From: Flavobacteriaceae bacterium
GTDB lineage: Bacteria > Bacteroidota > Bacteroidia > Flavobacteriales > Flavobacteriaceae
Reading direction: 5' to 3'
Assembly: GCA_030621915.1 (NCBI GenBank)
Contig: JAUXGV010000006.1
Coordinates: 1 to 34,859 of the forward strand
Length of the DNA stretch: 34,859 nt
In this document: positions 23,181 through 27,906 of the stretch, piece after piece
How the letters are laid out: each line of letters begins with the position of its first letter
Numbering within the stretch: the first letter of the stretch is position 1
Notes under the pieces: model-generated
What the model was told of the DNA's origin: nothing
The model's input: only the letters and a program-made list of their open reading frames with translations
The model's database searches: none
Translations under genes and position numbers: made by a program

Positions 23181-24998
23181 TTATTTTACTGCAACCAATT
23201 GACAAGATAAATCTTCAATTCTAAAATGCATTTGCTGTAAAGACTCCTTACTCGCCATCAAATCATCGATAATTACTGATTTGTTATCTTCGAACTTATC
23301 TTTAACATTGCTAAACATATTGTGATAATAGTTAATGCCGTCCCCTAAATTTTTCGAAAAAGCAAATAAATACTTTTCTTGTTTTTTAGTCATTGTTTCT
23401 TTAGCTTCATTTATTTTAGTGTTTAAGTAATCTAAATATAGATGAAGTTCCTTGATAAACATATTTGGTCTGTCATTTCTCACAATCACATTAGCTCTAC
23501 CATAAATATGATCCGTCATTTGTCTCAAACTTGATATTTTTGAAAAATAGGCCATATTTGGACCAGGACATACAGAAACTTTATCGGAATTTTTATGCTT
23601 GATTTTATTAACGGTTAATGCCGATGCAGATAAACCAACACATAAACAGGATTTTACAATAATTTTCTCAAGTTTAGAATTGTATTGTTCTGTTTCAAGA
23701 TTTTCGCTCTTAAGTTCTTTAACTTTTTTTCTTTGGTACTGTCTGGAAGCCGTACAAATGCTTTTTTCCGTAAACTCTCTATTCGAAGATAAAAACCCTT
23801 CAGGACAAGAACTTCCGGGTCTTCCTTGAATCGCCAAATTCATCTTTTCAATATCCTTTGTATTGCCTCTCACATTGTTAAAGGGCACTCCCAATGGTGA
23901 AATATCACTCAGATATAAATCTTCTTCCTTGGCCTCTAATAGTGTGTTTAATGTTTTGTCATCAACTGTAGTTGCTTCAGGAACCAATAGAAATGGTGTA
24001 CCCCAACCTACAGAATCAACCTTATAATGATCTAACAAAAATTCATGCTCATCAGATGTTCCCACACCTCCTTGGGCAGTAATAGTTAAGGGTAAAATTG
24101 AATTGGGAAGCGTTTTGTCTTTACTTTCAAGGGCGGGAACCAATACATCATAAACAGATCGAATTAATTCATCTTTATTTTCTTTAAATTCAGTTAAGAT
24201 GGGGCCCATTAAATACCCATCGGTAGCAAAAGCATGACCTCCACAATTCAAACCAGATTCAATTCTGAATTCCGAAACCCAAAGGCCTTTTTTTGCCAAA
24301 AATTTGCCCTGAATAAGTGCAGATCGATAATCACTAACTTTTAAAACAATTTTCTTTTTGATCTTACCTTCTTCATTTGGAAAAAAATCATCGAATTGTT
24401 CGATATAACTGTATAGTCTAGGATTCATTCCGGCAGAAAGAATAATAGAAGACTCCAAATCACTGTTTGCAAATCCTCTTAAAGCTGCATGGGCATCATT
24501 ATATTCTGAGGGTAGTTTTTCACCTTTAAAATAGTTCTCCTTATCCAGTTTGGTCATGATGTTAACATCAATACTACCCATTGAAAAGTTTTCATTAATC
24601 CAATTTTTAATTTCTTTCAAATTAAAATTATTGTTTTTTATCTTATCAAACTCTTGTTTCAATGATGAATTATCTGGTAATTTATTAAGATATTCCTTAA
24701 TTTCATTTCCTTTTTCAATGATGGAATGTTTGAATTCATTAAATTTCTTTTCAGCCAAATCATTGATTAAATTCAGATAAGATGTAATTCTTTTTGCTCT
24801 GAAGTCTTCGATTTTGTCTGTAATTTCATTATATGGAATCTTGAATTTATTACAATACATCTTTCTCATATTTTCAAGAAGAATGTCATCAACAATTGAA
24901 ATCACAGAATCAATTCCGAATTGAGACACTTTAAGTGGTGTATCAACCGTAAATCCAAGTCCCATGACCGGGATATGGAATGAGTGCTTATTTTTCAT
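23181..24998 (-). CDS. uncharacterised protein with a divergent FMN-binding nitronate-monooxygenase-like barrel
   Basis: A soluble protein of 605 residues that I do not recognise as a characterised enzyme. Several pieces line up in order with nitronate monooxygenase/PfaD TIM barrels: PVMGLGFTVDTPLKVSQFGI at the first strand; SIDVNIMTK; GLNCGGHAFA (about 248-257), like the family EAGGH; ITAQGGVGTSDEHEFLL (about 305), like the GG-I-G phosphate loop; and SVGWGTPFLLVPEA (about 329), like the family MGTRFL.TPE. A charged helical insert (about 40-135) and a Cys-containing C-terminal region (Cys near 398, 412, 450, 452 and 477) are not part of that family. FMN binding is an inference. It is preceded by its own promoter-like element and a short tandem repeat. 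Confidence 0.55.
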   Translation of the reverse strand: MKNKHSFHIPVMGLGFTVDTPLKVSQFGIDSVISIVDDILLENMRKMYCNKFKIPYNEITDKIEDFRAKRITSYLNLINDLAEKKFNEFKHSIIEKGNEIKEYLNKLPDNSSLKQEFDKIKNNNFNLKEIKNWINENFSMGSIDVNIMTKLDKENYFKGEKLPSEYNDAHAALRGFANSDLESSIILSAGMNPRLYSYIEQFDDFFPNEEGKIKKKIVLKVSDYRSALIQGKFLAKKGLWVSEFRIESGLNCGGHAFATDGYLMGPILTEFKENKDELIRSVYDVLVPALESKDKTLPNSILPLTITAQGGVGTSDEHEFLLDHYKVDSVGWGTPFLLVPEATTVDDKTLNTLLEAKEEDLYLSDISPLGVPFNNVRGNTKDIEKMNLAIQGRPGSSCPEGFLSSNREFTEKSICTASRQYQRKKVKELKSENLETEQYNSKLEKIIVKSCLCVGLSASALTVNKIKHKNSDKVSVCPGPNMAYFSKISSLRQMTDHIYGRANVIVRNDRPNMFIKELHLYLDYLNTKINEAKETMTKKQEKYLFAFSKNLGDGINYYHNMFSNVKDKFEDNKSVIIDDLMASKESLQQMHFRIEDLSCQLVAVK

Positions 24999-25074: not shown

Positions 25075-25082
25075 CAAAATTA
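25075..25082 (-). promoter_or_regulatory. -7 promoter element for the 605-residue protein gene
   Basis: On the minus strand this reads TAATTTTG, an exact match to TAnnTTTG, about 77 bp before the start codon. No convincing -33 TTG is seen at the usual distance. Confidence 0.4.
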
Positions 25083-25245
25083 CAATGATAGACTTTAATA
25101 AAATATGATAAATGTCTTGTTTTGATATTTTAAAACTATATCTGATTAAAAAATAGTGTGAATTTACAAGTATTAAGAATGTAAATTTTGAATCTTTTCA
25201 ATCTAATAATTAGAATATTACGTGTGAGGTGAGTGAATTTATTGC

Positions 25246-26113: not shown

Positions 26114-26767
26114 TCAATGCGTAAAGGTTATCAATCTACCCTCAATTTCTACTTTGGTAAATCTAAACTCCTTCTTGATCCATTCAAATGTTTTTTGCTG
26201 ATAAATAAAAACATGAGTAGGGTCATTTTTATAGTACCATTGATTAAAATCTATACTTTTATTAAAAATATCAGTCATACAATAAAGTTTACCATTAGGG
26301 AATAGCATTTTTTTTAACAACTGAAATTCCTTTAGAGGATTGTAAAAGTGTTCTATAACTTCACAACAGGCAATAAAGTTGTATTTTTCCATCAATAATT
26401 TGGGTTTATTATGAAAATAAGGATCGTATTGTTTGATATTATAATTATTGTCATTTAGAATTTTGGAGATCACCGGCCCCGTTCCTGCACCGAAATCAAG
26501 ACCTATGTCACTCGTAGAAAAATTAATTAATATAGCGGAAGTGATTGGGGAGACAAACTGTTGATATCCTTTGTCATTAACATCATTATTATGAGTTTGG
26601 TAGCGTAATTTTTCTGCTTCTTTATTTGGCCACAATTGATTGTCCATATAAATCCCATCACAAACAGGGCATTTGTAATACCGTAGATTATTTTTTTCAT
26701 AAAAAACATCACCTTGGTTAGAACAAAGTGGGCAGATATTTGAGAGGTTATTCTGCACAATAAACAC
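26114..26767 (-). CDS. class I SAM methyltransferase with N-terminal zinc ribbon
   Basis: A protein of 217 residues. The N-terminus holds a treble-clef or zinc-ribbon-like pattern CPLC-x17-CPVC (Cys12, 15, 33 and 36). A SAM-binding Rossmann domain follows, with motif I IGLDFGAGTGPVISKIL, then YNFIACCEVIEHFYNP and LLKKMLFPNGKLYCMTD. The pattern resembles small-molecule or sugar methyltransferases of the Methyltransf_23 type. The start codon lies 20 bp inside the preceding DksA-like gene on the same strand, suggesting coupled translation. The substrate is unknown. Confidence 0.82.
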   Translation of the reverse strand: MFIVQNNLSNICPLCSNQGDVFYEKNNLRYYKCPVCDGIYMDNQLWPNKEAEKLRYQTHNNDVNDKGYQQFVSPITSAILINFSTSDIGLDFGAGTGPVISKILNDNNYNIKQYDPYFHNKPKLLMEKYNFIACCEVIEHFYNPLKEFQLLKKMLFPNGKLYCMTDIFNKSIDFNQWYYKNDPTHVFIYQQKTFEWIKKEFRFTKVEIEGRLITFTH

Positions 26768-27071
26768 ATAATAGACTTTGAGGTCTGATTAATATTCTCC
26801 CTAAAGGTATGGGTTGATTACATTTAAGACAAATGCCAAAACCTTTATGACCTATTTGAGATAAAACTTGATACAAATTTTTTAATTTAATTTGTGCTTG
26901 TCTTAAACCTGCCTCAGCAACACTTTTATTGTTGATAGCATCCATACGAGATATACGTCCAATCGCAACATCTGGAGCTATAGGTTTTGTTACTTCCTTA
27001 TATTCTTCAATGGATTCCTCAGTTTTGGATATCTCATCTAGAATGGTTTGTTTAATTTTTTCTGGCAACAT
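26748..27071 (-). CDS. TraR/DksA-type zinc finger protein
   Basis: A protein of 107 residues with an N-terminal helical hairpin and a C-terminal C4 zinc finger (Cys81, 84, 102 and 105, CLKC...CVYC), the layout of DksA/TraR proteins that bind in the secondary channel of RNA polymerase. The hairpin turn holds GRISRMDAINNKS in place of the Asp-x-x-Asp-x-Ala tip of E. coli DksA; Asp44-Ala45 could supply part of it. A role in transcription tuning, perhaps with ppGpp, is inferred. The 3' end overlaps the zinc-ribbon methyltransferase gene. Confidence 0.85.
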   Translation of the reverse strand: MLPEKIKQTILDEISKTEESIEEYKEVTKPIAPDVAIGRISRMDAINNKSVAEAGLRQAQIKLKNLYQVLSQIGHKGFGICLKCNQPIPLGRILIRPQSLLCVYCAE

Positions 27072-27120: not shown

Positions 27121-27906
27121 TTAATAATCAGAATATTCTGTTGGGTATAAGAAATATTTATCTATATGAGAAACATTATTGGCATATTTACTCATAGGAG
27201 CCAATTTTTTCCATTCAGGGGAATCAACAAACTCCTTCCAATGAGCATCCCTGCTCTCCTGATCTGTAAAAGTGGTCATATACATTAAATTTGGCATTTT
27301 AGATCCTGATATAACTTCTCCATAAAAAACAGCATTGAACTCTAAGCGATTAAAAAGCTTTACCTCACCACCAGCATTAAACATATCAACTTTGTTCCGA
27401 TAGTATGCTACAGTAGGAGATTCATAGCTTCTCAATTCATATACCCTATCCTTTCGATTACCTTTTAATGAAGAAGCTTTCATTTTGGGCATATCTATAA
27501 AAGCCTTTAATATTATGGATTCGATTCTTTGAAAATTGGGTTTTTCATGCGAGCCCATGATATAATCAGAACCATTTTTTAAATATGTTTTATCACTTTC
27601 AACTTTGTTTTCTAGCCCTTCGAATTGCTCTAATGAGGAAAACGGAATCAATACATAGATTTTTTTAATGGAGTCAGTTCTTGGTTTAAAAACTCCTACA
27701 TTACTTATCCCTAGCCTTTTTATTGCAGGCAGGTAAGCTTCTTTAAGATAATTTTCTGTATTTGCAATTTGATCATCGGTATCAAAGGAATATATTTTTA
27801 TTTGATAGAATTCACGATTTGCTTCTTGTGTAAAACCTATGTTGGAAATTGAGAGTATAAGAGTGAAAAATAAAAATGTATTTAACTGATTTAACTTGAT
27901 TTTCAT
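27121..27906 (-). CDS. NIPSNAP family protein, exported
   Basis: A protein of 261 residues with a signal peptide (about 1-26, ending GFTQ). The mature part contains two ferredoxin-like NIPSNAP repeats: the first begins REFYQIKIYSFDT and the second VYELRSYESPT, with MYMTTFTDQESRDAHWKEF in the second repeat. NIPSNAP domains are dimeric alpha+beta barrel folds; the bacterial exported ones have no known activity. An AT-rich 320-bp gap separates it from the divergent gene at 28227. Confidence 0.88.
   Translation of the reverse strand: MKIKLNQLNTFLFFTLILSISNIGFTQEANREFYQIKIYSFDTDDQIANTENYLKEAYLPAIKRLGISNVGVFKPRTDSIKKIYVLIPFSSLEQFEGLENKVESDKTYLKNGSDYIMGSHEKPNFQRIESIILKAFIDMPKMKASSLKGNRKDRVYELRSYESPTVAYYRNKVDMFNAGGEVKLFNRLEFNAVFYGEVISGSKMPNLMYMTTFTDQESRDAHWKEFVDSPEWKKLAPMSKYANNVSHIDKYFLYPTEYSDY

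Follow-up and report, generated by a model that had tools for sequence, protein, structure and literature searches.

The window analyzed here is a 34,859-nucleotide stretch from a Flavobacteriaceae bacterium (GenBank assembly GCA_030621915.1, contig JAUXGV010000006.1), and its subject is a gene on the minus strand at 23181–24998, encoding a protein of 605 residues. A sequence-only reading had picked this gene out as a divergent flavin mononucleotide (FMN) barrel protein; its coordinates and length were right, and it had omitted the strand. The window also contains longer open reading frames (ORFs), of 969 and 807 residues. Homologues are found in 36 of 60 near-relative genomes and in 142 of 395 genomes of a phylum-wide Bacteroidota sample, where they are spread over 75 of 171 genera (the window's own genome counted in both), and nearly always as one copy; a chance ORF is thereby excluded, and the gene at 23181–24998 is genuine and conserved. 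Among the 14 loci in named genomes are Flavobacteriaceae, Bacteroidales, and Bacterium BMS3Abin03, together with one metagenome-assembled genome labelled as an actinobacterium; sampling by the phylum of BMS3Abin03 led back to the same phylum. A highly conserved, usually single-copy protein of more than one-third of the sampled Bacteroidota genomes has gone unseen by the curated family libraries that we searched. Its promoter and its neighbors tie it to nitric oxide (NO) and low-oxygen life, a link that is new relative to the earlier reading, and the gene is probably part of the low-oxygen and NO response. The features of the gene and of its upstream region are as follows.

23181–24998, minus strand: the gene, 605 residues from ATG to stop (ORF list and homologues).
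24849–24998, minus strand: residues 1–50, with the HIPVMG segment and a second barrel segment (strand at residues 8–13 in model 2 only, at low confidence; P10 and G13 in 86 of 87 homologues).
24588–24848, minus strand: residues 51–137, charged helical insert (helices in both models; conservation 0.52).
23964–24587, minus strand: residues 138–345, predicted barrel core with N146, E247, C252-GGH255, GG310–311, and GWG[TS]334 (models, fold matches, and conservation).
24234–24245, minus strand: C252-G-G-H255, with the proposed catalytic His and a Cys three residues upstream of it (87 of 87 homologues; putative match to H182 of FabX by motif).
23463–23963, minus strand: residues 346–512, Cys tail with C398, C415, C451-x-C453, and C477-PGPN; proposed Fe-S or metal subdomain (each Cys in 87 of 87 homologues; model confidence mostly below 50).
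23184–23462, minus strand: residues 513–605, long C-terminal helices (model 1; conservation 0.46).
25102–25121, minus strand: CRP/FNR-type palindrome AACAAGACATTTATCATATT, core at 25105–25118 with one mismatch (matrix score 16.6; position and spacing as in orthologues).
25075–25082, minus strand: TAATTTTG, which fits TAnnTTTG, its TTTG beginning 33 nt after the palindrome center (comparison of upstream regions).

Co-occurrence with genes of NO handling and denitrification was counted in 198 genomes, 75 with the gene and 123 without it, the window's own genome being part of all counts. Ric (97 genomes had a match, and the 78 that exceeded the cut-off were counted) was present in 56 of the 75 gene-positive genomes and 22 of the 123 gene-negative ones, an odds ratio (OR) of 13.5. 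The corresponding counts were 32 and 12 for NirK (OR 6.9; 44 genomes counted, 11 of them under the curated cut-off), 56 and 44 for the cbb3 oxidase (OR 5.3; 142 genomes had a match, and the 100 that exceeded the cut-off were counted), and 39 and 35 for NosZ (OR 2.7; 74 genomes counted, namely 73 over the cut-off and the own genome with its partial match). Among the 100 cbb3-positive genomes, the association was retained for Ric (OR 8.2, p = 2e-6) and NirK (OR 5.1, p = 0.001), but for NosZ the OR fell to 1.4 (p = 0.42), which suggests that the gene follows NO more closely than it does N2O respiration. Shuffles within families, based on the 99 of the 198 genomes whose family labels were listed, gave p = 0.003 for Ric and p = 0.003 for NirK. 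Sec-type N2O reductase was found over the cut-off in 73 of the 198 genomes of the phylum. The hybrid cluster protein Hcp showed the opposite pattern, with the gene in 1 of 44 Hcp-positive genomes versus 74 of 154 Hcp-negative ones; since 41 of the 44 Hcp genomes belong to one family, this anti-association may reflect ancestry. In the window's own genome, a distance of about 2 kb separates NirK from Ric on one contig, and a second contig carries a NosZ match limited to the 3' part; the two contigs are C4 and C53. With NirK and Ric present and NosZ matched only in its 3' part, the organism is probably a partial denitrifier.

To describe the surroundings of the gene, we compiled 74 loci, consisting of the window, the 14 loci in named genomes, and 59 loci mostly hand-picked for diversity; a further stretch, L150, was excluded because the gene was not spanned by it. 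Neighbor families were profiled on one representative each (at most two for Rrf2, Ric, and NosZ-type proteins), leaving most neighbors unprofiled, and intergene distances were read by eye between the bounds of the listed matches. The recurrent neighbors were an Rrf2 cluster (6 loci), Ric (4), a NirK-type protein (4), and NosD- and NosY-type proteins (3), and in several families the gene lies near ric, rrf2, nosZ, nirK, globin, or ygbA. Profiles confirmed NosD, NosL, Ric (ScdA_N plus hemerythrin), Rrf2, and U32 on the representatives, as well as a protein with copper-oxidase and cytochrome c domains that the NirK model also found, a bacterial globin, YgbA_NO, a Ric-type DUF2249 fusion, a NosZ propeller, and a Sec-dependent NosZ. 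The Rrf2 proteins passed only the superfamily cut-off, and their identity as IscR or NsrR is unsettled. Individual loci illustrate these arrangements. For example, one locus (L086) has the order nosD-nosF-nosY-rrf2-ric-gene, and a second (L082) reads gene-rrf2-cytochrome c-nosZ with a divergent ric, where the names nosF, nosY, and cytochrome c are presumed by us from size, order, or motif. Two others read rrf2-gene-globin (L092) and ygbA-gene, with ygbA upstream (L151).

Of the 56 genomes with both the gene and ric, 7 have ric 119–198 bp upstream on the same strand, 4 have it at 3–16 kb, and 3 more at 30–35 kb. NosZ lies 4.2–10.2 kb from the gene in 11 of the 39 genomes with both, which fall in families f1, f17, f36, and f38; the remaining genomes with both have the two on a shared contig at a distance of at least 345 kb (6 genomes) or on different contigs (22 genomes). 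NirK is found 3.3–4.3 kb away in 5 genomes, in 2 of which (G160 and G087) it exceeds the curated cut-off, and the cbb3 oxidase 2.8–3.8 kb away in at least 3 genomes. The neighborhoods are shared with genes of the NsrR-type NO-stress regulon (ric/ytfE, ygbA, and globin), and with Ric there is co-occurrence as well. A 2005 reconstruction of nitrogen-oxide regulons mentions that NsrR controls ytfE and ygbA in E. coli, and it places HcpR-type regulators together with hcp in Bacteroides; a search of its main text for Bacteroidetes or nitropropane gave no match, and the gene was not met there (PMC1274295).

Two further neighbors were observed in small numbers of loci. A copper-transporting-ATPase-like protein, which we take to be CcoI, adjoins the gene or lies near it in L007, L114, and L117. 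A U32-family protein is close to the gene in L075, L076, and L090, which represent two families; the best NCBIfam matches of the L075 copy were TrhP and UbiU, both under their cut-offs. Among U32 proteins are hydroxylases that carry Fe-S clusters and work without O2.

The sequence-only reading had credited the gene with its own promoter-like element, and comparison of upstream regions sharpened this into a CRP/FNR-type palindrome with a set spacing to TTTG. The palindrome TGA.A..T.TCA was present in 22 of 106 upstream regions, versus a mean of 1.07 and a maximum of 4 in 200 shuffles. A matrix built from it reads approximately AACMTGAYAWWTRTCAKGTT and scored at least 8 in 33 of 108 regions, versus 0.6% of shuffled ones; this matrix was trained on the regions that it scores, so the unbiased figure is the pattern count of 22 of 106, and the upstream regions of relatives are not independent of each other. 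TTTG starts 31–34 nt after the palindrome center in 26 of the 33 regions, versus 4.1% at random positions, and 13 of the 33 carry the full TAnnTTTG, presumably the Bacteroidota -7 element. Such spacing is what activation by a CRP/FNR-type protein bound near -41.5 would require, and at the level of the family a CRP/FNR-type site does lie at class II distance from the -7 element. In the window, a palindrome taken in isolation is at chance level (1 found, 1.02 expected), and it carries weight because its position and spacing are common to the orthologues. The exact pattern occurs 5–18 times per genome in four genomes, versus 1–2 times for the reversed pattern. In the own genome, one copy lies 263 nt before the start of ccoN with TTTG at 33 nt, and a complete relative has copies before an Rrf2 gene (TTTG at 32 nt), before cytochromes c (30 and 33 nt), and before a hydrogenase small subunit, where no TTTG was in range. 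Separately, three tandem paralogues of 353–361 residues in one genome (G011:C1:587800-593200, L212) each have the same palindrome centered 55 nt before the start codon.

Conservation of the protein was read from an alignment of 87 distinct homologues of at least 560 residues, shorter ones being left out; the others are 42–80% identical to the window protein. Invariant in 87 of 87 are N146, K150, K220, E247, G249, C252, G253, G254, H255, F257, Q309, G310, G311, G331, W332, F336, E341, C398, C415, C451, C453, C477-P-G-P, Y499, and R510; position 334 is T or S in all of them, and G313 and T314 are each found in 85. Consequently, the GGH, GGVGT, and GWGTPF-type motifs that the sequence-only reading had quoted are present, and their GG and GT elements are conserved. 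Its Cys-containing tail also holds: six Cys are invariant, five in the tail and one (C252) in the barrel, and the remaining two, C49 and C599, vary. Conservation was 0.74 in the barrel core (138–345), 0.64 in the Cys region (346–512), 0.52 in the insert (51–137), and 0.46 in residues 513–605. The insert had been put at about 95 charged helical residues, and it is borne out as a mostly helical stretch in both models, at approximately residues 51–137, that is less conserved than the core.

Two structure predictions were compared, model 1, an AlphaFold model at full length from 15 sequences, and model 2 restricted to residues 1–512, with the C-terminal helices omitted. The mean predicted local distance difference test (pLDDT) score was 58.6 for model 1 and 53.6 for model 2, which brought no gain. 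Blocks of residues 171–330 scored mostly 73–96 in model 1, with dips at 251–260 and 311–320, and the Cys region was mostly below 50 in both. Model 2 has strands at 8–13, 142–147, 184–187, 216–221, 241–247, 305–309, and 329–331, alternating with helices, and an eighth may lie near residues 30–35. Both predicted structures contain a beta/alpha barrel, as the sequence-only reading had expected, and it resembles the (beta/alpha)8 FMN-type barrel of nitronate monooxygenase (NMO) and FabK, at modest confidence (pLDDT 54–59). In VIA-align comparisons, the first barrels for model 1 were the MlnA enoyl reductase (Z 11.7; 218 residues aligned at 3.9 A) and PfaD (Z 11.6; 198 at 3.4 A), and the same two came first for model 2 (Z 11.4, 195 at 3.3 A, and Z 11.1, 222 at 4.8 A), followed by another PfaD-type entry, the DfnA enoyl reductase, FabK, and FabX. 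Matches to PfaD, FabK, FabX, and NMO barrels span Z values of approximately 8.4–11.7 over both models, with FabK, FabX, and NMO below PfaD, MlnA, and DfnA. Two helical bundles outrank the barrels in the list for model 1, where they match its helical parts, and other barrels (transaldolase and PEP-utilising enzymes) stand slightly lower in both lists. Because these other barrels score almost as high, the evidence for the fold is stronger than that for a particular family. With Foldseek, no hit reached E ≤ 0.001, the best being the MlnA enoyl reductase at 0.098. The reading as an FMN barrel thus stands on fold matches and conserved motifs, and is held back by modest pLDDT and by the lack of a confident Foldseek or profile relation; the barrel itself is supported but not proven, and the protein is probably an FMN barrel enzyme.

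Sequence searches place the protein apart from known families. The window protein matched no Pfam family at E ≤ 1, including PF03060, and PF03060 was also absent among the 25 of 55 families listed for 39 alignment members. NCBIfam gave two matches at E ≤ 1 (E 0.006 and 0.21), neither of them TIGR02814 (PfaD); both are far under their cut-offs and were taken as chance, as were three matches in the PDB (E 0.21–0.34) and a match of the C-terminal helices to apolipoprotein A-I (E 0.088). There was no significant relative of known function in Pfam, NCBIfam, PDB, PHROGs, or PADLOC, nor was anything significant found with full-length and barrel-only profiles in the PDB or with alignment members in Pfam and NCBIfam. 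Among the TIGR02814 matches listed for 99 genomes, none coincided with the gene, and a PF03060 search of the own genome matched contigs C168 and C209 and not C242. A local profile–profile comparison with the NMO-family proteins of relatives scored 25.3 (E 0.03, probability 1.6%) over residues 185–369. After realignment, its best stretch sets SAGMNP, GLNCGGH, AQGGVGT, and DSVGWG[ST]PF in register on SAGNP, GFEAGGH, AAGGI, and DGVQIGSRF. Without realignment, however, the best stretch is a different one and out of register (E 0.056), so that this test is weak on its own. A defense or phage origin was rejected after PHROGs and PADLOC searches with the window protein gave no match; the gene was not found on plasmids by tblastn, and a pattern search of viral contigs gave 8 candidates, 0 of which were confirmed.

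Among characterized enzymes, one comparison is with FabX of Helicobacter pylori. A paper on this enzyme reports FMN contacts through N99, E175, Q240, T243, and several glycines, names H182 as the catalytic residue, and describes a [4Fe-4S] cluster held by C300, C304, C308, and C320 in a C-terminal subdomain after the barrel, a cluster that its authors state to be missing from every other NMO family member so far characterised (PMC8626469). By motif register, N146, E247, G310–311, T/S334, and H255 may be the counterparts of the FabX FMN-binding and catalytic residues, with the invariant G331 in the place of Q240. The pattern of a catalytic-type His in GGH together with GG and G[TS] motifs is present in 87 of 87 homologues, as a putative equivalent of the catalytic His and phosphate-site motifs of NMO and FabK. 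FabX matches the barrel with Z 9.0–9.6, and its first tail Cys comes 57 residues after the T/S position, versus 64 here. The spacing of the tail differs: C398-x16-C415-x35-C-x-C-x23-C477 in place of the CX3CX3CX11C of FabX. An additional Cys near the catalytic-type His, the helical insert, a length of 605 rather than approximately 363 residues, and the missing Pfam NMO match also set the protein apart. PfaD and the enoyl reductases of trans-acyltransferase polyketide synthases (4z38, 4z9r, 4yx6, 4cw5) gave the top barrel matches in both models (195–222 residues aligned at 3.3–4.8 A), but they share 14–15% identity with it, it does not reach the TIGR02814 cut-off, and no polyketide genes were recognised nearby. 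We know of no such Cys tail in PfaD or trans-acting enoyl reductases. For FabK and NMO (PF03060), the barrel matches and GGH, GG, and GT are in register in the best local alignment, against the lack of a PF03060 profile match. The sequence-only reading had also proposed a metal or Fe-S site next to the flavin; the six invariant Cys and the precedent of FabX favor this idea, whereas the Cys spacing differs from that of FabX. No metal site can be read from the models, given their modest quality and a Cys region mostly below pLDDT 50. A metal site in the family is likely, and the tail seems likely, with slightly less assurance than the barrel, to bind metal, most plausibly as Fe-S.

Our preferred interpretation, still tentative as a whole, is that of a cytosolic FMN-dependent oxidoreductase with an NMO/FabK/PfaD-type barrel and a C-terminal Cys-ligated metal subdomain, serving the response to low oxygen and NO. 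Conservation, gene neighborhoods, co-occurrence, and the arrangement of the promoter are observed; the FMN, the metal, the cytosolic location, and the reaction are what we infer. The gene would be expressed when oxygen is low and NO is around, turned on by an FNR-like activator from the class II site. FMN would sit on the barrel at E247, N146, GG310–311, and T/S334, with H255 and C252 facing it, and the Cys cluster, most likely Fe-S, may feed or drain electrons, so that the enzyme could work without O2. Its likeliest job would be the removal of NO or of an NO-derived product, such as a nitroso or nitro compound, beside Ric, globin, and YgbA. We favor such a substrate because the tie to Ric and NirK is stronger than that to NosZ, with globin and YgbA adjoining in single loci. 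A bolder version, in which the protein represents a new class of flavo-Fe-S enzyme that consumes NO or nitroso compounds on an enoyl-reductase barrel and serves Bacteroidota lacking Hcp, is doubtful. Given that 73 of the 198 genomes encode the Sec-type N2O reductase, a missing part of NO handling in these bacteria, or a route to membrane lipids that needs no oxygen, would have a bearing on nitrogen cycling.

Several observations weigh against this interpretation. The sequence-only statement that the gene stands alone is true of the window, where it lies among glycosyltransferase, epimerase, acetyltransferase, and methyltransferase genes, but not of many relatives; even so, no operon is conserved throughout the 74 loci, and within the 198 genomes the tight ric-gene pair is limited to family f38. 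Ten of the 75 gene-positive genomes lack Ric, NosZ, and NirK altogether, and with only the 33 over-cut-off NirK genomes the association weakens (OR 3.6, p = 0.0014; OR 3.0, p = 0.036 among cbb3-positive genomes). We set aside the view that the gene merely follows N2O respiration, the NosZ link being gone in cbb3-positive genomes, but the contrast with NosZ is not absolute because a borderline association remains in the within-family shuffle (p = 0.047, 99 genomes). At the promoter, 75 of 108 upstream regions have no palindrome at the threshold used; in two genomes, 26 ORFs were listed that follow an exact palindrome, of which 8 have TTTG at 30–35 nt, and for many a connection with respiration is not apparent. 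Finally, there is no confident sequence-level homology to any flavoprotein, and the models are modest, with a Cys region mostly of low pLDDT.

The main rival is an enzyme that acts on acyl chains without O2, either a dehydrogenase/isomerase or an enoyl reductase, and that as a counterpart of FabX/UfaA would make or repair unsaturated fatty acids when O2-dependent desaturases fail; we regard it as possible, if on the unlikely side. An acyl-chain substrate is suggested by the closest folds (PfaD, the MlnA and DfnA enoyl reductases, FabK, and FabX), which act on acyl thioesters, and by the gonococcal precedent of NGO1024. FabX itself has a barrel of this type, followed by its [4Fe-4S] subdomain (PMC8626469). 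NGO1024, described as "2-nitropropane dioxygenase-like", is, like the nitrite reductase gene aniA, induced under anaerobic conditions (PMC3032703), and has been cited, from other work, as a FabX homologue essential for anaerobic synthesis of unsaturated fatty acids, its electron acceptor being unknown (PMC11300592). The FNR-type promoter would suit this role as well, and one locus (L078) has a thioesterase-like protein upstream. However, no recurring fatty-acid gene was recognised beside the gene in the 74 loci, with most neighbors unprofiled, and the closer tracking of Ric and NirK than of NosZ fits NO better than a mere lack of oxygen.

The position of the gene in nos-rrf2-ric clusters, the cbb3 oxidase within a few kilobases in at least 3 genomes, and the copper-ATPase-like neighbors in three loci could also point to a factor that, instead of consuming NO, serves denitrification enzymes in electron transfer, maturation, or Fe-S repair. 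We consider this unlikely: NosZ maturation is periplasmic and the protein has no export signal by eye, and the gene also occurs in genomes that have neither NosZ nor NirK. It is very improbable that the protein is a true nitronate monooxygenase acting on nitroalkanes, to which the register of its GGH, AGG-like, and GT motifs with those of NMO in the best local alignment might point. PF03060 is matched neither by the window protein nor among the families listed for its relatives, a separate PF03060 protein is encoded in the own genome (C168), and the NMO-type reaction uses O2, as noted for Npd (PMC3032703), whereas the gene appears to be under FNR-type control. Least probable of all is a protein that uses the barrel as a scaffold but is redox-dead or regulatory; the low-confidence model and the lack of a known sequence relative would allow it, but the catalytic-type His and the proposed equivalents of FMN contacts are conserved. 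The literature consulted does not name the protein, which does not prove that no such report exists. A hypothetical protein between nosZ and nosD in Flavobacterium nos clusters, described in 2022, is NosB according to its authors and not the present protein (PMC9697520).

A few genomes depart from a single intact copy. One (G209) has two full-length copies (C25:3027-4829 and C31:114595-116382), the sole such case among the 142 positives. Another (G053) has, in addition to an intact copy elsewhere in the genome, a second, broken one in pieces near a contig end (C1:4371173-4372871), some of them with internal stops. The homologue at C5:182459-184255 in G028 is nearly full length with one internal TGA and could be a decaying copy or a sequencing error. 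Elsewhere in the window, a DksA/TraR zinc-finger protein (26751–27071) stands beside a NIPSNAP-domain protein (27124–27906), with a signal-like N terminus noted by eye.

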